Below are positions 2,557-59,090 of a stretch of DNA of 59,090 nt, in pieces. Source of the DNA: a virus; the IMG/VR virus record IMGVR_UViG_3300005581_000015, positions 1 to 59,090 of that record, one strand, 5' to 3'. The notes under the pieces are model-generated. The model was not told where the DNA came from. It saw only the letters and a list, made by a program, of their open reading frames with translations, and searched no databases. Made by a program: the position numbers and the translations under genes. Each line of letters opens with the position of its first letter. The first letter of the stretch is position 1.

Positions 2557-3969
2557 ATGGCAATCACACTAGACGGAACCACAGGTATTACAGCATCGGG
2601 CAACATCACCGGCGGCAATTTGATCACATCCGGAAGTTTGGTCGTTACCGGTAACACTGCAACAACTTTTTCTGGTAATGTAAACATGGGCACTAAAAAC
2701 ATTATTAATTTAGCCGAACCAGTTAATTCACAAGATGCTGCCACAAAATACTATGTTGACAATGTTGCCCAGGGATTACATACACACGATAGTTGTAATG
2801 CAGCCACAACGACTACATTGGCAAGTATTTCCGGTGGTACTGTTACATATAACAACGGTACTAGTGGAGTTGGCGCCACATTGACAACAACAGGAACATA
2901 CACAACTATTGACGGTGTGACATTGAGCAATGGCATGCGTATTTTAGTTAAGAATGAAGTGACTGCCGCAAATAACGGTATCTATGATAGAACAAGTGCA
3001 ACAGTGTTAACACGTTCAGATGACTTTGATACCACAGCAGAAATGGCAGGCGGTGACTTTACATTTGTTACTGCGGGTACATTGTACGACAATACTGGTT
3101 GGGTAATGACTGATGTGGTAACTACAGTTGGTACAACGCCGGTTAATTGGGCACAGTTTTCAGGTGCTGGAACTTATCAAGCAGGCACAGGCTTAACATT
3201 AACTGGTGCTGTTTTCTCGGTCAATGCTAGTCAAACACAAGTTACTTCGGTGGGCACATTAGGATCACTAGCAGTTACAGGTAATATCAGCGGTGGAAAC
3301 TTGGTTGGCGTTGCTAATGTTAATTCAACAACATTTACAGGCACTACGATAAACGTCACTGGCAATGCCAACGTTGGTAACTTGGGTGCCACAACAGTGG
3401 TTGCAACCACATTGACAGGCACACTATCCACTGCCGCACAAACTAATATTACTTCCCTGGGCACGTTGTCTGGGCTAACAGTTAGTGGTATTATACAGCC
3501 CAACGCCAACGCCTCAATTGATCTTGGTGCCACAGCCGCACGTTTTAACAACGTTTATGGTGTGACATTTATTGGTATTTCTAATCAAGCCAAATACGCT
3601 GACTTGGCAGAGAATTATCAAGCTGATGCAGAATACGCACCAGGTACAGTTGTATCCTTTGGTGGCAGTGAAGAAGTTACAGTATCAGCCATGGATGCTG
3701 ATACCACAGTTGCTGGTGTTGTGTCTGGAAATCCAGCCTATCTAATGAATAGTCATCAAGAAGGCACACACGTAACTGCTCTAGCACTGCAAGGTCGAGT
3801 ATTATGTAATGTCACTGGTTTTATTAACAAAGGTGACATGCTAGTATCTGCAGGTAACGGTCGAGCAAGAGCTGAAAAAACACCCGGTGTTGGTACTGTG
3901 ATTGGTAAAGCATTACAGAACCATGCTGGTGGCAACGGCGCCATTGAAGTTGTGGTTGGTGTTAGATAA
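2557..3969 (+). CDS. Tail fibre protein with C-terminal YADLAE domain
   Basis: A 470-residue fibre protein. The N-terminal 70 residues carry GN-type repeats and the QDAATKYYVD junction shared with the preceding gene. The middle (about 80-220) is a distinct globular or beta-rich insert. Residues about 225-340 return to TGNxSGGNL-like repeats. The C-terminal 125 residues begin with KYADLAENYQADAEYAPG and form the conserved 'YADLAE' cap seen in many aquatic phage fibres. The C-terminal cap may be a trimerisation or tip domain (inference). The gene converges with the Nudix gene, overlapping it by 8 bases. Confidence 0.75.
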   Translation: MAITLDGTTGITASGNITGGNLITSGSLVVTGNTATTFSGNVNMGTKNIINLAEPVNSQDAATKYYVDNVAQGLHTHDSCNAATTTTLASISGGTVTYNNGTSGVGATLTTTGTYTTIDGVTLSNGMRILVKNEVTAANNGIYDRTSATVLTRSDDFDTTAEMAGGDFTFVTAGTLYDNTGWVMTDVVTTVGTTPVNWAQFSGAGTYQAGTGLTLTGAVFSVNASQTQVTSVGTLGSLAVTGNISGGNLVGVANVNSTTFTGTTINVTGNANVGNLGATTVVATTLTGTLSTAAQTNITSLGTLSGLTVSGIIQPNANASIDLGATAARFNNVYGVTFIGISNQAKYADLAENYQADAEYAPGTVVSFGGSEEVTVSAMDADTTVAGVVSGNPAYLMNSHQEGTHVTALALQGRVLCNVTGFINKGDMLVSAGNGRARAEKTPGVGTVIGKALQNHAGGNGAIEVVVGVR

Positions 3970-4393
3970 CGTTGTTTAAAACTATGGCAAGTTTTTCTTG
4001 CACAACCTCAATGTTAACCATATTCCACAGCCCAGGATGCATGGGTTTGGGCCAGTTCCGGTAATCAATCCAGGCATAGCCAAGGTGCTCGTTGTTGAGT
4101 ACCGGTAAAAATTCCTGGTCCAACACACAGATAAACGTGTTGTAGGCAAAACTTTGATTTGCGCTAGTAAATCTTTCTATCGGCAGCAATTTTTGATTCT
4201 TTGGAAACACCCCAATTTCTTCAAGACATTCTCGTTCTATTGCTTGCAAGAGGGTTTCACCAGGTTCAACTTTACCACCTGGCAGTCCCCAGGTGTTGGG
4301 ATGTTTTACGTCATTGCGTAAAAGATAAAGATATCTCTGTGTTGATCTACTATAAAACCAAACCCCAACAGCGTTTATAATACTATGTTCCAT
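3962..4393 (-). CDS. Nudix hydrolase
   Basis: A complete 143-residue Nudix protein. The Nudix box runs GGKVEPGETLLQ then AIERECLEEIG (about residues 38-60) and matches GX5EX7REUXEEXGU in full, so the metal-binding glutamates are present. Nudix enzymes cleave nucleoside diphosphate-X bonds; T4 also encodes one (NudE). The substrate here cannot be read from sequence: damaged dNTPs, Ap4A, a nucleotide sugar or an RNA cap are all possible. The ATG overlaps the 3' end of the gp15-like gene by 19 bases, so it is probably translated from the same minus-strand transcript. Confidence 0.85.
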   Translation of the reverse strand: MEHSIINAVGVWFYSRSTQRYLYLLRNDVKHPNTWGLPGGKVEPGETLLQAIERECLEEIGVFPKNQKLLPIERFTSANQSFAYNTFICVLDQEFLPVLNNEHLGYAWIDYRNWPKPMHPGLWNMVNIEVVQEKLAIVLNNVI

Positions 4394-5796
4394 TGTCCTG
4401 CCCGGTAAAGACCATCGTAACTCTTGTACCAGTGTGCTCCATCCCAGCGATACTGTATACTTGTGGTTATGTTGGTTACATATTGTAGGTCAGTTATTTC
4501 CCGACTGTTGAACACCACACGCCATTTGGCCCCGTCGTATTCAATGATATCGTTGGCCTCAGCAATCAATGCCTGACCAATATTACCTTCCCACCCAGTG
4601 GGATTGCTGGTATTATCAATGTTTCCGGTGCTCTCAGTCAACAAATATCGCTGACCGTAAACTGGTGCAGGCAATCCACCATTGGGAATAGCGGAGTCTC
4701 CACGATTGGGTCCACTAAGCAATGGATTAATAATTGCATCAACTGGTAATAGCGTATTTCCTGGGATTGTATCTGTGTCAATGGAGAACAGCATAAATCT
4801 ATCGTCGGCGGGGTTATAAGCAATGGTGCCAACAATAGAACTATCCGGATCCCAGGGATTATCTAAAGTAATGTAGCTAATTCCGTCTCTTAGTACGCCG
4901 TATGCTCCGACTACCGAGTGCCAGAGTATCTGTTGATCAATTGGAGAATCAAAAGGATCTTCGCTGGTTATGGGTTCAGACAGCACCGTTGACTGCTTGA
5001 CAACCTGTAGTTGTCCATTTAATAGCACAACTCCGTAGCCATATGGGGTTACTTTTTGTCTTGTGCCTAATAGTAAATCATTGTCAAGTACTGCATTGCT
5101 AGCATCACCGTTACCATCATATATTGAAGTAATAATACGTTCAATGACACCCAGTTTCTTAACTTTCGCAGGACTACTGATCCAAATTGGTATGTTAAAT
5201 TTTAGTGTGGCAATGTCAATGGGGTCTTCGGTTCCTTGCGGAATATTTCTACTGCTCCAGGTCACACTATCTAAATTAACCACGCTAAGGCTGGTCCAGT
5301 CAATGTAGTTGTCAGTATTTTGTATTTCCAATGCTGGGTTAAACAATGTCAATATTTGTTCAAGTAGTTGAAGCTTTTGATTGGTGTTACTAGTCCAGAT
5401 ATCTAAATTTAACCCCAACTTATATGGAACAGGCATCAGTCTCTCAATGGTAAATGCATTGCCTTGAGTGGTTTCGTAACTGTCAGTGGATTCATCATAG
5501 GTTCGTTGGCGAACCTGTATTTTATCAACAAAGTACGGTTCTTGTAATCTTGGACGGTCATACTCTAATGCATTGATGTAAAAGGTCATCAACGGAGTTG
5601 ACGGCATCATGTTAGCACTATTCTGTTGAATAATAGTTTGTGCCTGACGACTTGCATCACCATAACGAATTGGCACACGTATCAATGCCTGTGCGCCGTC
5701 AGTGTCTGTGCCATACTCTACTTGGAAATTGCTCAACATGCGAGTAAACTGTAATAGATACCTGCGTATCTGCTCTGAATAGAAAAATTGTTGCAT
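4375..5796 (-). CDS. 15: Tail sheath stabilizer / tail completion protein (gp15-like), extended
   Basis: A 473-residue protein. The N-terminal 220 residues resemble T4 gp15: a FFYSEQIRRYLLQFTRMLSNFQVEYG opening followed by ALIRVPIRYGD, then a segment on orienting and truncating tail-terminus folds (compare the T4 opening FYNSSFRRY with FIRVPITYAS). gp15 caps the tail tube and sheath and joins the tail to the neck. T4 gp15 is about 270 residues, so this protein has an extra 200 or so C-terminal residues, including a segment PVYGQRYLLTES with GWEGNIGQALIAEA that looks like a DUF2793-type surface module. It lies directly downstream of the gp14-like gene, as in T4, but on the opposite strand to gp13 and gp18. 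Confidence 0.7.
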   Translation of the reverse strand: MQQFFYSEQIRRYLLQFTRMLSNFQVEYGTDTDGAQALIRVPIRYGDASRQAQTIIQQNSANMMPSTPLMTFYINALEYDRPRLQEPYFVDKIQVRQRTYDESTDSYETTQGNAFTIERLMPVPYKLGLNLDIWTSNTNQKLQLLEQILTLFNPALEIQNTDNYIDWTSLSVVNLDSVTWSSRNIPQGTEDPIDIATLKFNIPIWISSPAKVKKLGVIERIITSIYDGNGDASNAVLDNDLLLGTRQKVTPYGYGVVLLNGQLQVVKQSTVLSEPITSEDPFDSPIDQQILWHSVVGAYGVLRDGISYITLDNPWDPDSSIVGTIAYNPADDRFMLFSIDTDTIPGNTLLPVDAIINPLLSGPNRGDSAIPNGGLPAPVYGQRYLLTESTGNIDNTSNPTGWEGNIGQALIAEANDIIEYDGAKWRVVFNSREITDLQYVTNITTSIQYRWDGAHWYKSYDGLYRAGQWNIVL

Positions 5797-42968: not shown

Positions 42969-43615
42969 TGCCATCCCATGATCCAATCATCTTTAACTTG
43001 TTGTAACACAACCATGCCCCAACTCTTTAACAATTCAATTGCGGCATACTGTCCGTAATCACTGCTGTAGGCATCGTGCGGTTTTTGTTCTACTACAACC
43101 ACCGGACGACACCGACGAATTGTTTGTTCAGCACCTTGAATAACACGATATTCAAACCCTTCGCAGTCCATTTTGATGTAGCTTATGTCGTCAAAGTTGT
43201 AGCTGTCTAATGTTCTTACTTCAGTTTCTCCACTGCCAATGCTGTCTGGAGCAATATGTGTATGTCCCATGTTGCCCAGTGTGACATTCATTTTTGCCCA
43301 GGTATGTTCGTTGCCCAAGGCTTGTTCATACACTGTGAAATTTGTTCTAGTGACATTTTTAGATAAACAATAACGAAACAACTGCACAGGCTCAAATGCA
43401 ATTACTTGATCAAAGCGTTCAGTTAAGTCACGACTCCAAAGTCCCACATTGGCACCAATGTCAATGGCAGTGTGTTTATTGGCGCACAGTGCAATACTAC
43501 GGTCTCTAACTTGATATTGATAACGAGCAGGCCCGCCTTTGTCTACACTTTTTTGTAGCATCTTTTGAAAATGTGATTCGCCTTCGGGGAACCACCATGT
43601 TAAAAATTCATTCAT
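42965..43615 (-). CDS. FkbM-family methyltransferase
   Basis: A FkbM-type O-methyltransferase of about 216 residues. Motifs are AIDIGANVGLWSRDL, VIAFEPVQLFRY, and the FkbM hallmark YIKMDCEGFEYRVIQGAE. FkbM enzymes often methylate sugars or cap polysaccharide chains. Two start codons are possible, 43627 and 43615; the second is preferred as it overlaps the upstream stop less. Operon with the adjacent transferases. Confidence 0.85.
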   Translation of the reverse strand: MNEFLTWWFPEGESHFQKMLQKSVDKGGPARYQYQVRDRSIALCANKHTAIDIGANVGLWSRDLTERFDQVIAFEPVQLFRYCLSKNVTRTNFTVYEQALGNEHTWAKMNVTLGNMGHTHIAPDSIGSGETEVRTLDSYNFDDISYIKMDCEGFEYRVIQGAEQTIRRCRPVVVVEQKPHDAYSSDYGQYAAIELLKSWGMVVLQQVKDDWIMGWQ

Positions 43616-44414
43616 GTCGAGTCTCATCTAAAATTCTTTTTGCAGTGCCATCTTGTAATTCTTTGTTGTGGAACTGTCCGTAGGCCAAATGATATGCCCA
43701 GGCATGCACTAGATCCTGGTCGGGATACCAAGGATTGTCTATGTTGGACAACTGCACATTTGACACCGGCATTGCGGCATTGCAAGGTGCTAGTACAAAT
43801 GCTGGAATCCCTGCAATAATGCTTTCTGTGGCAGCAATACTGTTGAATGTCACTAATGCAAACACATCGTTATCCAATGCAGATTCTAAATCACTGCCAA
43901 CACGGTTTTGTCTATTAGGGTCACGCACACGTAGCTCAATGGGTCTATCTGTGTATCTTTTAATTTCATCAACAGTATTGTTGATCCAGTGGTCTAAGTC
44001 AACACCATAAAATACACAAGGTTTTTCGTCGGGCGCTGCCACTAATATTTTACGCCCGTCTTTGCGCCAGTTGCGAAGTTTAATCTGCAACTTCTCCCAA
44101 CGATCACTGGGTCTTGTAACAATGCTGTTGTGTTGTAGATTGTTGTCAACAATGCGATGCCACTGTTTCCAGCCATTGGGATTAAGTGGGTTTTTGCGAT
44201 TACCCACATACCCAGAGTCCATGTATCGAAATGCACGACCATCCTGCCAGCACTGTTTGATTATTTTGTGTTTCATGATACCGCGTATCACCAATGGATC
44301 GTTGTTGGAATCATAATTCCACGTTTCTAATGTAGTGGGAGCGGCACCAGATCCACGAGCAAACAAATCAATATACTCGTCGGTGCCTTTCTTACTAAGA
44401 TAAGTCCAGTTCAT
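43608..44414 (-). CDS. KpsS/KpsC-like protein, stand-alone homologue of the 35270 fusion C-terminus
   Basis: A 268-residue protein whose middle and end match the C-terminal half of the 35270-36928 fusion: LVIRGIMKHKIIKQC, YMDSGYVGNRKNP, VTRPSDRW, ILVAAPDEKPC and VTFNSIAATESIIAGIPAFVLAP. The serine-rich SIAATE segment corresponds to the SSxG-like donor-binding motif of capsule synthesis proteins. Operon member; upstream gene overlaps by 4 bp. Its gene duplication with the fusion protein is clear by eye. Confidence 0.65.
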   Translation of the reverse strand: MNWTYLSKKGTDEYIDLFARGSGAAPTTLETWNYDSNNDPLVIRGIMKHKIIKQCWQDGRAFRYMDSGYVGNRKNPLNPNGWKQWHRIVDNNLQHNSIVTRPSDRWEKLQIKLRNWRKDGRKILVAAPDEKPCVFYGVDLDHWINNTVDEIKRYTDRPIELRVRDPNRQNRVGSDLESALDNDVFALVTFNSIAATESIIAGIPAFVLAPCNAAMPVSNVQLSNIDNPWYPDQDLVHAWAYHLAYGQFHNKELQDGTAKRILDETRHE

Positions 44415-49264: not shown

Positions 49265-50734
49265 ATGAAAACAGCACAATTGGTTATTTCGGATGAAGTC
49301 AACTGTAAAATTAACGGACTTGATTTAGAAACCCGCAAAACACTAAGCAACAAATTCAAATACGACATTCCTTATGCACGTTATCTTCCTGCGGTTAGGT
49401 TGGGGAGGTGGGATGGTAAGATGGCGTTCTTCCATCTTGGTGGATCGTCATTTGTAAATCTGTTGCCAGAGATACTGCCAATATTAGAACGATATGGTTA
49501 TGATATTGAGTTAGAGGACTTGCGCGAATACTCAACTACCTTCGAATTTACACCTGTTACAGAAACTACGTTTGCACACAAAGCCTGGCCCAAGGGTCAC
49601 CCTGCAGAAGGTCAGTCTGTGGTGCTACGTGACTACCAGGTTGAGATTGTCAACAATTTCTTAACCAATCCGCAGTGCCTGCAAGAGGTAGCCACAGGCG
49701 CAGGCAAGACTTTGATGACTGCGGCTTTGAGTTACAGCATAGAAGCACATGGGCGCAGTATTGTCATTGTTCCCAACAAAAGTCTAGTAACGCAAACAGA
49801 AAAAGATTACATTAATCTTGGATTGGATGTGGGGGTATACTTTGGCGATAGAAAAGAGTATAACAAAACACACACAATCTGTACTTGGCAAAGTCTTAAT
49901 AACATGTTTAAGAAGACTAAGACAGGTGAGGCCGAAGTCAACATACACGACTTTATTGAGGGTGTGGTCTGTGTCATGGTTGATGAAGTACACATGGCCA
50001 AAGCAGACGCACTTAAAACACTATTAACTGGAGTATTTGCTAGAGTGCCTATCCGTTGGGGCTTGACAGGAACCATCCCCAAAGAGCAGTTTGAGTTCCA
50101 AGCATTGCATGTCAGTATTGGTCCTGTGATCAGTAGACTCACAGCCAATGAACTGCAACAACAAGGTGTGCTGGCAAACTGCCATGTCAACATTGTTCAA
50201 CTAATTGACAATGTAGAATACAGCAATTATCAAAGTGAGCTAAAGTACTTGCTGGAAGAAACGGGTAGACTTGACACCATTGCTGGGTTAATTAAACAAG
50301 TCAACGAAACCGGCAACACCTTGGTGCTAGTAGACAGGGTGGCCGCAGGCAAAGAGCTAGCAAGTAGACTAGGAGACCGAGCAGTGTTTGTTAGTGGCGC
50401 AACCAAAGCAAAGGATAGACAAGATGAATATGATGAAGTGGCGGAATCGACTGGTAAGATTATCGTGGCGACTTATGGTGTGGCCGCTGTGGGTATTAAT
50501 ATCCCTCGTATTTTTAATTTGGTACTTTTGGAATCCGGAAAGAGCTTTACAAGAGTTATACAAAGCATTGGGCGCGGCATTAGAAAAGCAGAGGACAAGG
50601 ACTTCGTACAAATCTGGGATGTGACCAGTACTTGTAAATTTGCCAAACGTCATTTAACTAAACGCAAGCAATTTTATCGAGAAGCTAACTATCCTTTTAC
50701 TTTAGAGAAATTAGATTGGATGGTGCTTGCATAA
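49265..50734 (+). CDS. uvsW: UvsW helicase (SF2)
   Basis: A 489-residue SF2 helicase matching T4 UvsW (503 residues). Motif I ATGAGKTLM, motif II VMVDEVHMAK (DEVH), motif III WGLTGTIPK, motif VI QSIGRGIRK. The N-terminal 100 residues (VISDEVNCKINGL with KYDIPYARYLPAVRLGRWDGK) are the UvsW-specific DNA-binding domain. UvsW unwinds R-loops, promotes branch migration and helps switch replication origin use. It lies next to a terminator and its own promoter. The following radical SAM gene overlaps the stop (TAATG). Confidence 0.93.
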   Translation: MKTAQLVISDEVNCKINGLDLETRKTLSNKFKYDIPYARYLPAVRLGRWDGKMAFFHLGGSSFVNLLPEILPILERYGYDIELEDLREYSTTFEFTPVTETTFAHKAWPKGHPAEGQSVVLRDYQVEIVNNFLTNPQCLQEVATGAGKTLMTAALSYSIEAHGRSIVIVPNKSLVTQTEKDYINLGLDVGVYFGDRKEYNKTHTICTWQSLNNMFKKTKTGEAEVNIHDFIEGVVCVMVDEVHMAKADALKTLLTGVFARVPIRWGLTGTIPKEQFEFQALHVSIGPVISRLTANELQQQGVLANCHVNIVQLIDNVEYSNYQSELKYLLEETGRLDTIAGLIKQVNETGNTLVLVDRVAAGKELASRLGDRAVFVSGATKAKDRQDEYDEVAESTGKIIVATYGVAAVGINIPRIFNLVLLESGKSFTRVIQSIGRGIRKAEDKDFVQIWDVTSTCKFAKRHLTKRKQFYREANYPFTLEKLDWMVLA

Positions 50735-51951
50735 TGCAACCTAGTAATCTTTGCCTAGCACCATTCACTTATATGACTTTTGATCCAGCTACAAATGTCA
50801 GCCCGTGCCCAGCATTGGGCGGAAGTGTTTGGAACTTTAAAGATCAGCCGTTACAACGAATCTGGACCAATGAACAGTTAACTGAATTTAGAGACCACAT
50901 GCTAGAAAACAACAAGCATGAAGTGTGCCATCGTTGTTGGGATGAAGAAGCAGTTGGCATGGACAGCGAACGCACAATGTTATGGGATCCAGACAAAGAC
51001 CCCACCGGAGTTAATACTGTAATTCTTGACAGCGGTAAAACAGCCGCAGATATTTTAAGAAATTACAAACAAGGACCAATGCAACTTATTATCAAAGTAG
51101 GCAATGTTTGTAATCTTCGATGCCGTAGTTGTAATTCTGCAGACAGTATTACTTTATCTGTCGAAGGAAAGTATTATGCAGACCATTATGGATTAACAAA
51201 AAATTTCTATCTTAAAGAGACTGAGACTAAAACATTTACTGATGCACAAATTGATGAGATAATCCAATTTTGCAATAACGTTGTTAGGATTGAATTTTAT
51301 GGCGGCGAACCATTATTGGACAAACAGCTTCCTAAATTTTTACGTAAGTTAGTTGAACTTGATCTTGCTAAAAAAATCAATTTAAACATCAGCACCAATG
51401 TCACACACATAATCAGCGATGAGCTAATTGAAACTTTGTCACATTTTAATCATTTAAACATTAATTTAAGCATTGATGCTTGGGGAGATAAGTTTACCTA
51501 TGTACGACATCCAGGTAAGTGGAATGATGTCTACTGCAACATTAAATGGTTTATCCAACTGCGAGATTCAGGAAAACTAAAGCTATCATTATTGATAGCA
51601 ACAACCGTGACAATAATGAATGTCTACAACTTGCCAGAACTGCTAGATGAATTTGATTTGTTGGAATTACCGGTATTCTTAATATTAGCATGGTTCCCAC
51701 ACTATTATTCTATTAGAAACATCCCAGACAATATTGCACAAGCAATTGCCCAACGTCTAACTGCAACCGGCCGCAACAATCTTCGACCCATTACACAGGC
51801 CCTAAGCAACGGCTTTGATGCAGAACACTGGGGCAAATTTAAGAGTTGGACCATCATGGTTGACAAGTATCGCAACGAATCCTTTGCAACAACATTTCCA
51901 GAATACACAAAATTAATAAAAACCTATGACGATAAGGTTGACTTTGTTTGA
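50734..51951 (+). CDS. Radical SAM protein, twitch type (copy 2)
   Basis: A 405-residue radical SAM enzyme. C-x3-C-x2-C at C126, C130 and C133 (VCNLRCRSC). GGEP-like motif FYGGEPLLDKQ. Auxiliary N-terminal cysteines C7, C25, C65 and C68, as in copies 1 and 3, suggest a second iron-sulphur cluster in a twitch domain. The start MQPSNLCLAPF at 50734 overlaps the uvsW stop and is preferred over 50716. Substrate unknown. Confidence 0.82.
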   Translation: MQPSNLCLAPFTYMTFDPATNVSPCPALGGSVWNFKDQPLQRIWTNEQLTEFRDHMLENNKHEVCHRCWDEEAVGMDSERTMLWDPDKDPTGVNTVILDSGKTAADILRNYKQGPMQLIIKVGNVCNLRCRSCNSADSITLSVEGKYYADHYGLTKNFYLKETETKTFTDAQIDEIIQFCNNVVRIEFYGGEPLLDKQLPKFLRKLVELDLAKKINLNISTNVTHIISDELIETLSHFNHLNINLSIDAWGDKFTYVRHPGKWNDVYCNIKWFIQLRDSGKLKLSLLIATTVTIMNVYNLPELLDEFDLLELPVFLILAWFPHYYSIRNIPDNIAQAIAQRLTATGRNNLRPITQALSNGFDAEHWGKFKSWTIMVDKYRNESFATTFPEYTKLIKTYDDKVDFV

Positions 51952-51972: not shown

Positions 51973-52473
51973 ATGCAAATACTAACTTTAGACGACACAT
52001 CATATGAATTAAATAGCTTGCCAGACGAAGTTGAAGACTTGCGTTTTGCTATTTTTGACAACTCAAACACACAAGATCCAGATTATTATTTTATTCCGTT
52101 GATCTTTCTTGAAAGTTTTACAGCGCCAGCCTTAGTATTACAAATTGGTAGCCACACAGTTAAAATGCCACTGGACTGGCAAATCTTAATTGGAGAGCCA
52201 GACCTAGGTGACTTGGAAGTTCTGCCTCTAACTTCAATAAATGATCGTGGGTTTACGGTATTCCAATTCAATCCACTGAGTAGTTTTAGGCCTAGTTTTT
52301 TGCCCATTGAGATAGTTGACGTCTACAGTGAAGTAACATGGTTTGCTCCTAAATTAAAGAATGGGCAATTCCTATGTGTGCCACTAGACGGTAGTGACAA
52401 TCCTGAATGTGTTTATTTTGTTAAAGATGTAAGTCGTAACTGTGAGATTGTAGATTATAACAAGGCCTGGTAA
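51973..52473 (+). CDS. Hypothetical protein
   Basis: A 166-residue acidic protein with conserved-looking PLIFLESFTAPALVLQIGSHTVKMPLDWQILIGEPDLGDLEVLP. Beta-strand content is high; a possible single-domain regulatory protein. I recognise the type from aquatic T4-like phages but have no function for it. It opens a five-gene cluster including gp62-like and DnaE-like proteins. Stop overlaps the next start (TAATG). The surrounding promoter suggests early expression. Confidence 0.7.
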   Translation: MQILTLDDTSYELNSLPDEVEDLRFAIFDNSNTQDPDYYFIPLIFLESFTAPALVLQIGSHTVKMPLDWQILIGEPDLGDLEVLPLTSINDRGFTVFQFNPLSSFRPSFLPIEIVDVYSEVTWFAPKLKNGQFLCVPLDGSDNPECVYFVKDVSRNCEIVDYNKAW

Positions 52474-52913
52474 TGTCTGATAAACTTGATATCAAAAATG
52501 AAATGCGACAGTTTGATAGAAAGAATCGCAATTTCTATCGAGAGTTAACCAACGAGGAACGCAAAAAGTTTAGCAACTATCTCATGATTCGGTGGGGTAG
52601 TGCTGTGGATGGTTCTAGAGAGTTACAGGAATTTTATTTAATTGCAACCAATCAACGATTAAACAAACATTTTTTTACAATAAACCACCATCCAGAGTTA
52701 CAGTGGTTGTTGGCAACTACTGTTAGTCCAGACATGGGTGCACAATATCACCCTTGGATCAAACCCAACAAAAAGGGCGAGGGTAGTAAAAACAAAAAAC
52801 TATTGGCACAGCTATACCCTACATATAAAAACGATGACTTAGAAGTGTTGGCACAATTAGTGACCACAAAAGAGATACAACAAGAATTAAAACGAGTTGG
52901 AATAGAATCTTAA
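52473..52913 (+). CDS. 62: Sliding-clamp loader small subunit (gp62-like)
   Basis: A 146-residue protein resembling gp62 of aquatic T4-like phages. After an N-terminal charged helix, the segment FYLIATNQRLNKHFFTINHHPELQWLLATTVSP corresponds to the conserved central gp62 block, and YHPWIKPNKK to the KRFSKWxK segment. In T4 the gp44/gp62 complex loads the gp45 clamp. T4 gp62 is 187 residues. The gene sits near primase and helicase genes, in line with a replication function. Similarity is read by eye; a false match is possible. Confidence 0.55.
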   Translation: MSDKLDIKNEMRQFDRKNRNFYRELTNEERKKFSNYLMIRWGSAVDGSRELQEFYLIATNQRLNKHFFTINHHPELQWLLATTVSPDMGAQYHPWIKPNKKGEGSKNKKLLAQLYPTYKNDDLEVLAQLVTTKEIQQELKRVGIES

Positions 52914-52914
52914 C

Positions 52915-53835
52915 ATGGCTAAAATTGGAGACATCAAAGACAAGGTTGTAATTGTTGATTATGTCCCAGCATCACACGGGCATTTTATCATAGATACCCT
53001 ACATTCATTGATGTTAAATCGAACATCCATTGATGAATCAATTGGCAATAAAAACTATCATCATTCTTCAGTTATTCCGCAGCCGGTTCTTTGGGGGCAA
53101 ACACTAGAACAAAATATCAACTCTGTTGAATTTATAAATGATAGTTGGATCTCAGACTGTGATAAATTATTTTGGCCATCGCATTGGTCTAATTATTGGT
53201 TGGAAAAACGTTTAGACAAACAACATATCAAATTGCTTAAACGTGACATCGACAATTATCCTATGATAGAAATATATGTAGGCAAAGAATTTTATTTCCG
53301 TTGGTTAATTAATTGGTGGTTTAATGTTGGCACAGTACCAAAAGACAGCATTGCTGATAACAGATATTTTGTAGATAATTTTTATAAAATTTCTCAAGAC
53401 ATACAAAGTACCCGTATGTTTACTACCGCAGTGTCACAAGCCATAACCACTAACCCAGAGAATCATAGGTATACTACTGTTGAAGTAATTTCGATGTTAG
53501 AGGAAATGATAAAGATTGCACACAGCAACACTTATGTTGCGGGCAACACCTGGCCACAACGCCCTTTGAAATCGTTTTATCTAACAAATAAAATCATTTC
53601 ATTTGACATGGCACAATTTTATAGTTACAATAAGTTTGTTGCAATGATAAACAAAATTAAAAATTTCTTTGCACTGCAATTTGATGTCAACGAAGAATAT
53701 TTAAAACATACTTGGATTAGATTCATAAACAATCAGTACCCAATACAAGTATACAACGAATCGGTGCCAGACAACAACTTGCATGTCATTGAACAAGCAT
53801 ATAGATCTTTTTTAAAAAAATGCAAGCTACAATAA
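52915..53835 (+). CDS. Hypothetical protein
   Basis: A 306-residue protein starting VVIVDYVPASHGHFIIDTL, a strand-Gly-loop-helix start like that of 10054-10656 and of sulfotransferase-like proteins. Aromatic-rich (many Trp, Tyr, His), e.g. YFRWLINWWFNVG. No other motif. It overlaps the next gene by 16 bp. I cannot assign a function. Confidence 0.6.
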   Translation: MAKIGDIKDKVVIVDYVPASHGHFIIDTLHSLMLNRTSIDESIGNKNYHHSSVIPQPVLWGQTLEQNINSVEFINDSWISDCDKLFWPSHWSNYWLEKRLDKQHIKLLKRDIDNYPMIEIYVGKEFYFRWLINWWFNVGTVPKDSIADNRYFVDNFYKISQDIQSTRMFTTAVSQAITTNPENHRYTTVEVISMLEEMIKIAHSNTYVAGNTWPQRPLKSFYLTNKIISFDMAQFYSYNKFVAMINKIKNFFALQFDVNEEYLKHTWIRFINNQYPIQVYNESVPDNNLHVIEQAYRSFLKKCKLQ

Positions 53836-54512
53836 AAATAACTTACAGTTGTCAATATTGTAAAAAAGAATTTGCCAAAGAATCAACCGTGAGCAGTCAC
53901 ATGTGTGAGTCCAAGCGCCGTCATTTAGAAATTGATGACCGCGGTGTACAACTTGGGTACCGAGCATTCTTAAGATTCTTTGAGATTGCTGCCAAAAGTT
54001 CACGCACAAAGGATTATTCAGATTTTGTTGGTAGTCCGTACTATCGTGCGTTTGTTAAGTTTGGCAAGTATATTATTGGTGTTAAAGCAATTGCACCAGA
54101 AGCATTTGTTGATTGGCTATTAAAGAATAACAAAAAAATAGATTATTGGTGCAAGGATAGTTTGTATTCAGAATTTTTAAATCAGCATTTAAAAGTTGAG
54201 TCAGTGTCAGACGCACTTGCTCGAGCAATCGAATACGGAATCAACTGGGGCGAAACACAGGGCATGCAGGCACATGACATCATGAGATATGGTAGCCCCA
54301 ACAGAATAGTGTTTGCAATAACCACAGGTAGGATCAGCGCCTGGGCAGTATACAATTCAGATTCAGGGCAAGAGTTTTTAAACAAACTAACTGGAGAGCA
54401 TCTGACAATGATATGGCCATTTATTGATACAGACTTTTGGCAAAAGAAATTCCAAGACAATTCAGATGATCAGGCTTATGCACGTAAAATGTTAAAAATG
54501 GCAGGATGGTAA
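53820..54512 (+). CDS. Protein with N-terminal C2H2-like zinc finger
   Basis: A 230-residue protein. CQYCKKEFAKESTVSSHMC at residues 11-29 forms a C-x2-C-x(n)-H-x2-C-like finger. The remaining 190 residues are alpha-helical (YRAFVKFGKYIIGVKAIAPEAFVDW and FAITTGRISAWAVYNSDSGQEFL). A DNA- or RNA-binding role is suggested by the finger only. It overlaps the gene before it. It lies directly upstream of the DnaE-like mini-protein and may act with it. Confidence 0.65.
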   Translation: MQATIKITYSCQYCKKEFAKESTVSSHMCESKRRHLEIDDRGVQLGYRAFLRFFEIAAKSSRTKDYSDFVGSPYYRAFVKFGKYIIGVKAIAPEAFVDWLLKNNKKIDYWCKDSLYSEFLNQHLKVESVSDALARAIEYGINWGETQGMQAHDIMRYGSPNRIVFAITTGRISAWAVYNSDSGQEFLNKLTGEHLTMIWPFIDTDFWQKKFQDNSDDQAYARKMLKMAGW

Positions 54513-54514
54513 TA

Positions 54515-55087
54515 ATGAGCGCAGACATTGATATTGACTTTGGTGATAGATCATCCATTTTGAAGTTGATCAAACACACGCCAGCAATGCAAATTACTCA
54601 AGGGGTAGCTAGGATACACAACAGCGGAGTATATGTCACAGACATTCCCGGGGATCCAATTAATAATTTTGCATCAATTGAGTATAATGAAGCTGAGAGC
54701 CGTGGGTATTTTAAAATTGACTTTTTAAATATGGGTGTTTACCAACTGGTGCAAAGTCCTAATCACTATCAAGAGATGATAGATGCAACCCCTCCTTGGG
54801 ATAGATTATGGCAGGATACTGCATGGGCCAGCCAGCTGGTGCACGTGGGTAACTACACTGAACTGTTGCAGAAAATGCAACCAAAGAATATACCGCAAAT
54901 GGCGGCTTTTATTAGTATTATTAGACCAGGCAAGGCTCATCTGCAAAATAAACCCTGGAAAGAAGTGTTTGAGTCAGTCTGGGATGGCAACGATTCTTTA
55001 GGGTATACATTTAAAAAATCACATGCAATCAGTTATGCCGCCCTGGTGGCATTGCACATGAATTTGTTAAATACTACAAACGTTTAA
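54515..55087 (+). CDS. Miniature DnaE-like protein (DNA polymerase III alpha palm motifs)
   Basis: A 190-residue protein that carries, in order, signatures of the bacterial C-family polymerase: DIDIDFGDR at residues 4-12 (DnaE PDxDxDF, the first two catalytic Asp), RIHNSGVYVTDIPGDPI at 33-49 (DnaE RNxGxHAxGVVI), RGYFKIDFLNMGVYQL at 63-78 (DnaE GLxKFDFLGL, third catalytic Asp), MAAFISIIRPGK (DnaE RPGP), and FKKSHAISYAALVA (DnaE NKSHSAAYAL). DnaE is near 1160 residues; PHP, thumb and fingers are absent. The start at ATG 54515 is used. Whether it polymerises DNA is open; it may be a degenerate polymerase or replication regulator. Confidence 0.72.
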   Translation: MSADIDIDFGDRSSILKLIKHTPAMQITQGVARIHNSGVYVTDIPGDPINNFASIEYNEAESRGYFKIDFLNMGVYQLVQSPNHYQEMIDATPPWDRLWQDTAWASQLVHVGNYTELLQKMQPKNIPQMAAFISIIRPGKAHLQNKPWKEVFESVWDGNDSLGYTFKKSHAISYAALVALHMNLLNTTNV

Positions 55088-55448
55088 CTAGTGTGATACT
55101 TCTACGTTTACCTTTTTTACTAGAAATATTGTTTAAACTACACACCGGGCCGTGTAGGATTTCAAGTTCTCTGTTATTAAATGTGCGTAGCGTGAAGCGA
55201 AATTGGGTCCAATCTTCTTTTAAGAAGATGTTTATGGGAACCTGCCTATTACTTTCCCACCACCAGGTGTTGCCAAGTTCTAAAAATACTTGCTTTTGTA
55301 TTTGCCCGTGAATCATGGCAAAATCGTAGATGGTTGTAATATCTGCGTTTCTGTTTTGTACTATACCAATATACTCCGTGTTGCTATAAACACAGAGTGT
55401 AATAAAGGGGTACTTTTCTGCAAGTTTTGTTAATATATCATTGCCCAT
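55074..55448 (-). CDS. Hypothetical conserved phage protein
   Basis: A 124-residue protein on the minus strand. YIGIVQNRNADITTIYDF with TWWWESNRQVPINIFLKEDW is a pattern I associate with small conserved proteins of aquatic T4-like phages, function unknown. Its 3' end overlaps the DnaE-like gene by 14 bases; its start abuts the late box of the next gene. Lone reverse gene among forward ones. Confidence 0.65.
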   Translation of the reverse strand: MGNDILTKLAEKYPFITLCVYSNTEYIGIVQNRNADITTIYDFAMIHGQIQKQVFLELGNTWWWESNRQVPINIFLKEDWTQFRFTLRTFNNRELEILHGPVCSLNNISSKKGKRRSITLVKRL

Positions 55449-56568: not shown

Positions 56569-57564
56569 ATGATCGATCTGGCATCCTACCTACCTGCAAA
56601 AAGAAAACATACCCCATCGGGATGGATGAGTTTCAATGCGGTTTGTTGCACACACAATGGCAACAATTTGGACAAGCGGCAACGTGGTGGTATCAAGTTG
56701 TCAGACCAAGGTTGGAGTTACCATTGCTTTAACTGTGGATACACTGCTAGTTTTATTTTAGGTCGCACTCTGAGCTTTAAAGCTCGAAAGCTATTAAGTT
56801 GGATGGGGGTGCCGGATCACGAAATTGACATGGCTAATCTTGAAAGCCTAAGACACAAAAGCATACATGGCATTCTTGATGAACGACAACAAACGTTCAA
56901 TGCATTGGCTGCAATTGAGTTTGGAGACGCTGATGATTTACCTCCTTTTAGTGAAGTCGTCACAGAAGACTATCCTTATTATTGGAAATATATTCGCCAG
57001 AGACATGTCCCAGAAGATTTTCCTATACTAACTGCAATTAAAAATGATGGTGTTCATTGGGTTAGACCTTTTGTGCTGGTACCGTTTACATATGACAACA
57101 AGGTAGTGGGCTGGACTGCTAGATTTTTAGATAATAAACTACCCAAGTATATTAATCATTCGCAACCGGGGTATGTATTTGGCACAGACTTACAACAATC
57201 AAACTGGGAACATGTTCTGGTGATGGAAGGCATTTTTGACGCACTCAGTATTGGCGGCCTTGCAGTTATGCACAACACTGTCAGCGACAGTCAAGCTAGA
57301 TTAATACGTAGTTTAGGCAAACAGGTAACTGTTGTGCCTGACCAGGACAAAGCAGGATTAGAATTAATTGATCGTGCTGTAGAACTAGGATGGGCAGTAA
57401 GTATACCCACCTGGCCAGAACATATTAAAGATGTAAACGATGCTGTAATAGCATATGGTAGGTTGGGTGCATTATTAACTATAATGCAGGCAAGGGAGAC
57501 CAGTAGAATTAAAATAGAAATGCACAAGAAAAAACTCATCAAGACATTGGCATTAAAAAAATGA
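56569..57564 (+). CDS. 61: DNA primase (gp61-like)
   Basis: A 331-residue DnaG-type primase matching T4 gp61 (342 residues). Zinc-binding N-terminus: VCCTHNGNNLDKR with WSYHCFNCGY. TOPRIM core: LVMEGIFDALSI and VPDQDKAGLELI. It makes RNA primers together with gp41 helicase, encoded 1.1 kb downstream behind a radical SAM gene. The ATG is at 56569 next to the promoter, so a leaderless start is likely. Confidence 0.9.
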   Translation: MIDLASYLPAKRKHTPSGWMSFNAVCCTHNGNNLDKRQRGGIKLSDQGWSYHCFNCGYTASFILGRTLSFKARKLLSWMGVPDHEIDMANLESLRHKSIHGILDERQQTFNALAAIEFGDADDLPPFSEVVTEDYPYYWKYIRQRHVPEDFPILTAIKNDGVHWVRPFVLVPFTYDNKVVGWTARFLDNKLPKYINHSQPGYVFGTDLQQSNWEHVLVMEGIFDALSIGGLAVMHNTVSDSQARLIRSLGKQVTVVPDQDKAGLELIDRAVELGWAVSIPTWPEHIKDVNDAVIAYGRLGALLTIMQARETSRIKIEMHKKKLIKTLALKK

Positions 57565-58670
57565 GCACCGATATAGATTGTCCGTATTATCATCATGGAT
57601 TGTTTATAGGATCAACTCCCAATGGTCAAACTCAGATGTCTATGTGTTGTTGGCAATCTAAAACAACAGTAGACAATGCTGTAACATTTGATCATGTGTA
57701 TCTTGAATCCATTAGAACACAATCAACCACACAAATACCCAAAGAATGTTCACAGTATTGTAGTATGCCAGGGCATGTAGCCAACGAACGTGAGAGGGCC
57801 ACGGTTGAATGGGCAACTCTATTTAAAAATATTCCGCCTGGCGCAATAAAAACTCTACATCTAGAACAATCACTGACTTGTAATTTAACTTGTATTAGCT
57901 GTAGTTCTAATTACAGCACAGCCTGGAATCGCGATTATCATCGGTTTGATAGTACATTTCCGCGCATACAACTGGCAAAGTTCCCAGAAGAAAAATGGCG
58001 AGACCTTGACTTACAACATTTAGAAAAATTACACTTTACTGGTGGCGAGCCGTTGCTTAATCGTGACAATAAAAAAATATTACAGCATCTATTAGACATT
58101 GGGCGCCTGGGCAACGTTATGTTGTCCTACAATACAAATGGTACAGTGTTTCCAGACCAAGAAACACTAGACCTGTGGAGCAAGTGTAGGTTTGTTAGAT
58201 TATTTTTTAGCCTTGACGGAGTAGATTCAGTATTTGAGTATACACGGTACCCAGCTAAATGGAATGAAGTAGAATCAAACATTCAACAATTTCGAGCGTT
58301 GACTTCAACTTGTGTATTAATTGAAGTAAATGCAATTGTTGGAATACATAACATATTTGGATTACCAGAATTTTTTAACTGGTGGGAAAATAATTGCCAG
58401 TCAGGTAGTCAAGGTGACCCCAGTTCAATATTTGTTCGTACAATCAATGGTTGGAGCCACGGTGGTCGGGTGCTAGATTTAGCTAGTTTGTCCAATGAAC
58501 AAGCAAACAAGGCCGTGAGTATGTTACAATCACTAAACAAATATCCAGGCGTTCCAGACCTAATAAATTATATAACAACTCATAACCGCCCCAACAAAGA
58601 TTGGGTGACATACTTGGATACACTAGACAGTATCCGCGGAACAAACTGGAAAAAGGATTTACCTTGTTAA
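57561..58670 (+). CDS. Radical SAM protein, twitch type (copy 3)
   Basis: A 369-residue radical SAM enzyme. C-x3-C-x2-C at C107, C111 and C114 (TCNLTCISC), GGEP in HFTGGEPLLNRD, and SLDGVDSVFEYTRYP. N-terminal auxiliary cysteines C7, C29/C30, C63 and C67, as in the other two copies. It is coupled to the primase gene (ATGA) and to gp41 (overlap), so it lies in the heart of the replication operon. Substrate unknown. Confidence 0.82.
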   Translation: MSTDIDCPYYHHGLFIGSTPNGQTQMSMCCWQSKTTVDNAVTFDHVYLESIRTQSTTQIPKECSQYCSMPGHVANERERATVEWATLFKNIPPGAIKTLHLEQSLTCNLTCISCSSNYSTAWNRDYHRFDSTFPRIQLAKFPEEKWRDLDLQHLEKLHFTGGEPLLNRDNKKILQHLLDIGRLGNVMLSYNTNGTVFPDQETLDLWSKCRFVRLFFSLDGVDSVFEYTRYPAKWNEVESNIQQFRALTSTCVLIEVNAIVGIHNIFGLPEFFNWWENNCQSGSQGDPSSIFVRTINGWSHGGRVLDLASLSNEQANKAVSMLQSLNKYPGVPDLINYITTHNRPNKDWVTYLDTLDSIRGTNWKKDLPC

Positions 58671-59090
58671 AAGAATATAACACAGATGTACAAAAACTAT
58701 TTCTGGAGATGATGCTCGAGGACGCACAAAGCTATGTGCGAGTGCAAAATATCTACAATCCAGAAAACTTTGATAAAAGTTTGCGCACGGCTGCGCAGTT
58801 TATTAAAGAGCACAGTGACAAGTACAACACACTGCCAGACAAAACGCAGATTGCTGCCGCATGTAATATATCATTGCAAAGTGTGCCTGACTTGAATGAA
58901 GGGCATTACGAGTGGTTCATGCAGGAGTTTGAGGGATTTACAAAACGCCAGGAGCTTGAACGTGCCATTTTAAAAGCAGCCGACTTGTTGGAAAAGGGCG
59001 AGTTTGATCCAGTAGAAAAACTGATCAAAGACGCTGTGCAAATTAGTTTGACCAAGGACATGGGCACAGACTACTTTGCTGATCCCAAAG
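58664..59090 (+). CDS. 41: Replicative DNA helicase (gp41-like), 3' partial
   Basis: The frame is open to the right edge (142 residues). The start is TTG at 58664 with AAAAGGATTTACC as ribosome binding site; the first downstream ATG lies 15 codons in. N-terminus reads LLKEYNTDVQKLFLEMMLED, then a helical region with KRQELERAILKAADLLEKGEF, as in gp41/DnaB-type helicase N-terminal domains. The ATPase core lies outside the window, so the assignment rests on the N-terminal pattern and on the neighbouring gp61 gene. Confidence 0.65.
   Translation, partial: MLKEYNTDVQKLFLEMMLEDAQSYVRVQNIYNPENFDKSLRTAAQFIKEHSDKYNTLPDKTQIAAACNISLQSVPDLNEGHYEWFMQEFEGFTKRQELERAILKAADLLEKGEFDPVEKLIKDAVQISLTKDMGTDYFADPK

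Follow-up and report, generated by a model that had tools for sequence, protein, structure and literature searches.

A 190-residue phage protein is the probable C-terminal palm/fingers half of a minimal DNA polymerase III alpha made as two proteins

A phage-specific minimal DNA polymerase III alpha (Pol III alpha) that is split into two proteins encoded by distant genes was described in the group 2.2 jumbo phages by Iyer et al. 2021 (PMC7824862). There, NTP binding was assigned to the N-terminal protein and Mg and template binding to the C-terminal one, the phages having a family B polymerase as well, and the pair was proposed to reconstitute an enzyme cooperating in one-strand synthesis or repair (PMC7824862). 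Earlier, in 2017, gp328 of phage CBB had been recognized as a truncated form of Pol III alpha (PMC5259590). No experimental test of the pair was found reported in the papers searched. The window analysed here, a 59,090-nucleotide stretch of the IMG/VR virus record IMGVR_UViG_3300005581_000015, harbours at 54515..55087 (+) a coding sequence (CDS) of 190 aa that is the metal- and template-binding palm/fingers half of such an enzyme (hereafter the C-half; the N-terminal protein is the N-half). In the relatives examined, the system to which it belongs has the published layout of two proteins, with distant genes, a family B polymerase and no other Pol III alpha domains, and there is no fundamental difference between the two. 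Since the split minimal Pol III alpha had already been described, the C-half of the window is a further case of it and not a new kind of protein. The preliminary description of this DNA, which knew of no described role for such a protein, was right in part only, cooperation with the family B enzyme having been proposed by Iyer et al. 2021 (PMC7824862). What is new here is the exact split point before DxDxD, an active site found strictly conserved in 165 frames, the absence of the fingers motifs YQEQ and RRAMGKK, a phage-specific extension of ~78 residues on the N-half, a relative with a 141-kb genome (Slicko01), and a phage DnaE (BS-TP1) that is broken at the same loop.

The ORF starts two bases past the stop of the upstream gene, with an in-frame ATG at 54506 as a possible alternative start. 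By profile comparison its product belongs over its full length to phrog_11778, annotated 'DNA polymerase' in PHROGs (residues 3-188 against positions 7-194 of 197; E=4.5e-53). Homologues were found by tblastn in 63 phage records, each covering ≥80% of the query at <60% identity, and nearly all of these are jumbo phages (RaK2, 121Q, CBB, GAP32, PA5oct, Atu_ph07, XacN1, SCTP-2 and Phosso among them); Slicko01, with its smaller genome, also encodes a relative, as do at least 578 IMG/VR stretches. The phrog_11778 C-half is a real and widespread phage family. Its CBB member (gp287) carries the earlier annotation 'putative membrane protein'.

Re-reading of the ORF and its translation confirmed both the coordinates and the five motifs in DnaE order that had been reported in the preliminary description: DIDIDF (residues 4-9; 54524..54541), RIHNSGVYVTDIP (residues 33-45; HNSGVYVTDIP at 54617..54649), GYFKIDFLNMG (residues 64-74; KIDFL at 54713..54727), RPGK (residues 137-140; 54923..54934) and FKKSHAISYAA (residues 166-176; FKKSHA at 55010..55027), all on the + strand. 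The three catalytic-type aspartates pointed out there also hold up: D4, D6 and D69 align with the catalytic D401, D403 and D555 of E. coli alpha (D69, like K67 with K553, in the profile alignment), and D8 with D405. The second motif aligns in the profile alignment with the H511/G514 region (HAGGVV) of E. coli alpha, R137-P138 with R639-P640 of E. coli and R667-P668 of M. tuberculosis DnaE1, and H170 with H760 and H787, respectively. Thus, the C-half has the palm with three catalytic Asp by which a C-family polymerase is recognized. Among the 165 homologue frames, the DxDxD, KxDxL, RPx[KR] and FKKxH-type motifs were each present in all, the HxxGV-type motif in 164, and all three catalytic Asp were kept in every one; in the alignment of 103 homologues, D4, D6, K67, D69, R137, P138 and H170 are invariant. 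In M. tuberculosis DnaE1, R667 and H787 contact nargenicin, which takes up the position of the nascent base pair (PMC8922275).

Identification of the C-half as DnaE-like needed profiles, since a single-sequence phmmer search of the PDB returned no match and Pfam gave a single sub-threshold match, to the finger domain. When the profile of 103 homologues was searched against all PDB sequences, nine of the ten matches at E up to 10 were DnaE, with the matched segments short and collinear, and profile-profile comparison with seven DnaEs gave E=5.2e-8. The AlphaFold2 model of the C-half (pLDDT 93.9; pTM 0.85) was consistent with this. Foldseek alone gave a best E of 1.5e-3, yet its first 12 rows were all C-family; upon structural re-alignment of the Foldseek candidates, the top 16 entries were all DnaE or PolC, with 181-188 of the 190 residues aligned (Z from 6.3 to 10.0), while the next row was an unrelated protein at Z 3.4. 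On E. coli alpha the structural match spans residues 399-780. The likeness to DnaE is therefore far beyond chance. The preliminary description had taken the ORF for a drastically reduced DnaE relative in a T4-like replication cluster, to be judged by comparison with the DnaE/PolC palm and by whether the motif matches exceed chance; the profile matches, the fold matches (only C-family polymerases ranked first) and the synteny given below bear it out. Compared with bacterial DnaE and PolC (E. coli Pol III alpha, PDB 2HNH; Taq, 3E0D; Gka PolC, 3F2B; M. tuberculosis DnaE1, 7PU7), the palm fold, the collinear order and the positions of the catalytic Asp triad, K553, R639-P640 and H760 are held in common.

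The C-half is nonetheless 190 residues long against ~1160 for bacterial DnaE. From DxDxD to HxxGV there are 26 residues (23-30 in the homologues), as compared with 102-118 in the DnaEs measured, so the thumb is gone. The stretch from RPxK to FKKxH, 24-33 residues in the homologues (~25 here) versus ~115 in DnaE, leaves no room for YQEQ (E. coli 686-689) and RRAMGKK (709-715), and RRxMGKK was found in none of the 165 homologues. A loose YQE pattern occurs in 24 homologues; the HYQEM of the window was rejected as the YQEQ fingers motif as it lies before RPGK. GRGS (E. coli 361-364) is also absent from the chain, being carried in relatives by the separate N-half. That 'all' C-family motifs are present, as first described, was therefore an overstatement. 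Since the 190 residues all fall inside E. coli 399-780 when aligned, the PHP, OB and clamp- or tau-binding domains are absent as well. DnaE relatives bind both the clamp and tau, and the preliminary description had raised the idea of a decoy aimed at the clamp or tau complex of the host; such a role is extremely improbable, because the OB and C-terminal parts through which DnaE binds them lie outside the retained span, and a decoy would have no need of the catalytic triad, which is kept. With YQEQ and RRAMGKK missing, either nucleotide and template binding must differ from those of DnaE, or the activity is another nucleotidyl transfer. Many proteins of the pol beta-type nucleotidyltransferase fold, to which the palm belongs, are not polymerases, so that together with the two lost motifs an enzyme of the same fold but another job (for example nucleotide modification, or a nucleotidyl transfer that is terminal or non-templated) could be considered. 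This is improbable too: templated pairing is suggested by the invariance of R137 and H170, whose M. tuberculosis DnaE1 equivalents sit at the nascent base pair (PMC8922275), and the genomic context is one of replication.

The N-half is the phrog_11127 family, whose gene is near that of the gp44 clamp loader. CBB gp328 is a member of it and a protein distinct from the C-half; the 172-aa 'DNA polymerase III alpha subunit' of CBB (CBB_328) and GAP32 (PMC5259590) represents the other half of the pair. The family covers E. coli alpha 322-392 by profile (hhalign E=1.1e-9), and its model (pLDDT 94.4) matches residues 278/279-393 by structure, all rows being C-family polymerases. The GxGRGS motif is present in 94 of 94 N-half frames. 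As the N-half proteins end 0-6 residues past EF[LF] at the split point and the C-half opens with DxDxD soon after the protein start, the two abut in the loop just before DxDxD and together cover the palm and part of the fingers, leaving five or six residues between them (E. coli alpha 279-393 plus 399-780; M. tuberculosis 306-413 plus 418-807; Taq 293-455 plus 460-837). No fused N+C protein was seen among the 165 C-half and 94 N-half frames (best 80 loci per scan). The N-terminal ~77-78 residues of the N-half (for example, residues 1-78 of L095:6001-6534) are phage-specific and predicted with high confidence, with no listed structural match in what was a weak test; this part is possibly a docking domain.

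The position of the split bears on whether the 190-aa protein makes DNA alone, the minimal polymerase of the preliminary description. A complete catalytic Asp triad, most of the palm and part of the fingers are indeed in the C-half. However, the GRGS loop that holds the phosphates of the incoming nucleotide, along with the helices packing on it, lies on the separate N-terminal protein, and the two genes almost never occur apart, so that a polymerase complete in the C-half alone is very improbable.

Co-occurrence was assessed in ten isolate genomes and in metagenomic contigs, which had been chosen for holding one half, the informative part thus being the presence of the other. Each of the ten isolate genomes carries one copy of each half and a family B polymerase (PF00136). 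Among the records listed, 58 of the 60 with a C-half also appear among the 60 with an N-half, with Slicko01 added by profile; PP728206, which falls outside this overlap, is an unverified 109-kb record of a phage whose relatives are ~350 kb. The two genes are 11-224 kb apart in the genomes examined. Within the 59-kb window, which is a fragment, no N-half was found, the sole tblastn match, LDMNEFLTW at 43595-43621, being dismissed as chance (E=2, inside an unrelated gene). The pairing in this virus is hence inferred from relatives, such as a close one (G011; C-half 72% identical) that has its C-half at 43 kb and its N-half at 139 kb, ~96 kb apart. In another contig (G014), a weak match to 34 positions of the N-half profile falls within a frame of 587 aa and is left out of the N-half count. 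A 359-kb contig (G003, the contig of L113) encodes an N-half together with a family B polymerase, and no C-half was detected in it; either this contig is incomplete or the pair is broken there. A DnaQ-type exonuclease was rejected as a constant third partner, as it was present in only seven of the ten isolate genomes.

The C-half gene sits in a conserved replication cluster, with one gene order shared by RaK2, CBB, Cassandra, Phosso and environmental relatives: UvsW, phrog_11279, phrog_11758, phrog_11058, C-half, phrog_11637 on the opposite strand, and primase. In the window it starts with a UvsW-like helicase (49265..50734 (+); phrog_16, E=2e-73). The phrog_11758 gene (52473..52913 (+)), which in Slicko01 follows the gene of the RFC small subunit (gp44-like), is a candidate gp62-like clamp-loader small subunit; sequence support for the gp62-like neighbour of the preliminary description was lacking, with hhalign of phrog_11758 against T4 gp62 at E=0.15, which is not significant, and a gp62 identity was likewise not significant by hhalign for the genes at 51973, 52473 and 53820. 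The gene directly upstream of the C-half (phrog_11058, 1.6e-53; 53820..54512 (+)) has a homologue in 152 of the 165 loci, and weak matches indicate a C2H2-like zinc finger at the N-terminus of its product. Downstream, a small convergent gene standing alone on its strand (phrog_11637, 2.1e-30; 55074..55448 (−)) overlaps the 3′ end of the C-half; it was found on the − strand, converging with the C-half and usually overlapping its 3′ end, in 158 of the 165 loci, and this fixed antisense overlap may reflect a regulatory link. The primase and helicase named as neighbours in the preliminary description were confirmed by PHROGs matches, as a DnaG-type, gp61-like primase with Toprim (56569..57564 (+); domain and PHROGs matches, synteny) and the 5′ part of a DnaB-like, gp41-like replicative helicase (58601..59090 (+); phrog_19, E=8.6e-11) that is cut by the contig end and whose true start is possibly further in than annotated. 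Two genes of radical-SAM type (CxxxCxxC) also lie within the cluster, one at 50716-51951 after UvsW and the other, matching phrog_14086, at 57561-58670 between primase and helicase; none was seen at these places in the relatives examined.

With the C-half gene near primase and helicase, and the N-half gene located upstream of gp44, a few genes away, in most isolates read, the two halves could instead act as a non-catalytic unit of palm/fingers shape, one that holds primer ends and links primase-helicase with the clamp loader and with the family B polymerase. The loss of the thumb, YQEQ and RRAMGKK would suit such a scaffold, and the missing fingers motifs keep it under consideration. Enzymes that lose catalysis, however, usually lose their metal ligands, whereas here the catalytic Asp triad, together with Lys67, Arg137, His170 and, in the partner, GxGRGS, is kept without exception; a non-catalytic replisome factor is thus unlikely, if less so than the other alternatives.

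Homology, catalytic residues, split point, co-occurrence and synteny all come directly from the computation, and from them we infer the assembly, the activity and the role of the pair. The ORF probably encodes one half, the C-terminal one, of a minimal C-family (Pol III alpha-like) enzyme made as two proteins, which share an active site and carry out short synthesis beside the family B replicase. The N-half would supply the GxGRGS loop holding the phosphates of the incoming nucleotide, and the C-half the metal-binding Asp triad (D4, D6 and D69) and the pocket of the nascent base pair (K67, R137 and H170), with the two assembling into a single palm/fingers active site without a covalent link. 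Because the thumb, the PHP and OB domains, the parts that bind clamp and tau, and two fingers motifs are missing, the assembled enzyme is expected to be non-processive. Its most likely task at the phage fork, next to the family B replicase, is DNA synthesis over short stretches (gap filling, primer extension or repair) or a different template-guided nucleotidyl transfer. Most likely, then, the pair is a nucleotidyltransferase that is heterodimeric, non-processive and template-using and that supports the family B replisome. The stronger proposal that it is an active polymerase, with one site built from two polypeptides, no thumb and neither of the two fingers motifs, the smallest natural C-family member and one dividing labour with family B, is more tentative, its chances being put at somewhat under even. 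If active, it would have a catalytic site shared by two proteins encoded 11-224 kb apart in the genomes examined and would mark the minimum that a C-family polymerase requires; many jumbo phages would then be using two unrelated polymerases. The catalytic residues are conserved across hundreds of environmental phages and no assay was found in the papers searched, so the proposal is directly testable with two small proteins.

A break at the same loop just before DxDxD was found in the unrelated DnaE of Bacteroides phage BS-TP1 (PQ571274.1), which is in two pieces at 2944-4677 (−) and 1-1701 (−) (loci L090 and L268) that flank a Dda-like helicase gene, the second piece being unannotated as a gene. 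Unlike the jumbo-phage split, this DnaE keeps PHP, thumb and YQEQ and has an intein-like tail on its N-part, the best Pfam match of which is Intein_splicing (E 8e-4, below the cut-off). It may therefore be a split-intein DnaE rejoined by protein splicing and, by analogy, a break of this kind is a possible route by which the jumbo-phage split arose.

The family B polymerase was likewise seen over two open frames, in Slicko01 (W08, 3529-5033), Atu_ph07 (W09, 212336-213688) and Cassandra (W02, 88828-92605), and a split intein has been reported in the family B polymerase of MIJ3 (PMC6892783). Thus, both polymerases of this group of phages can be split.
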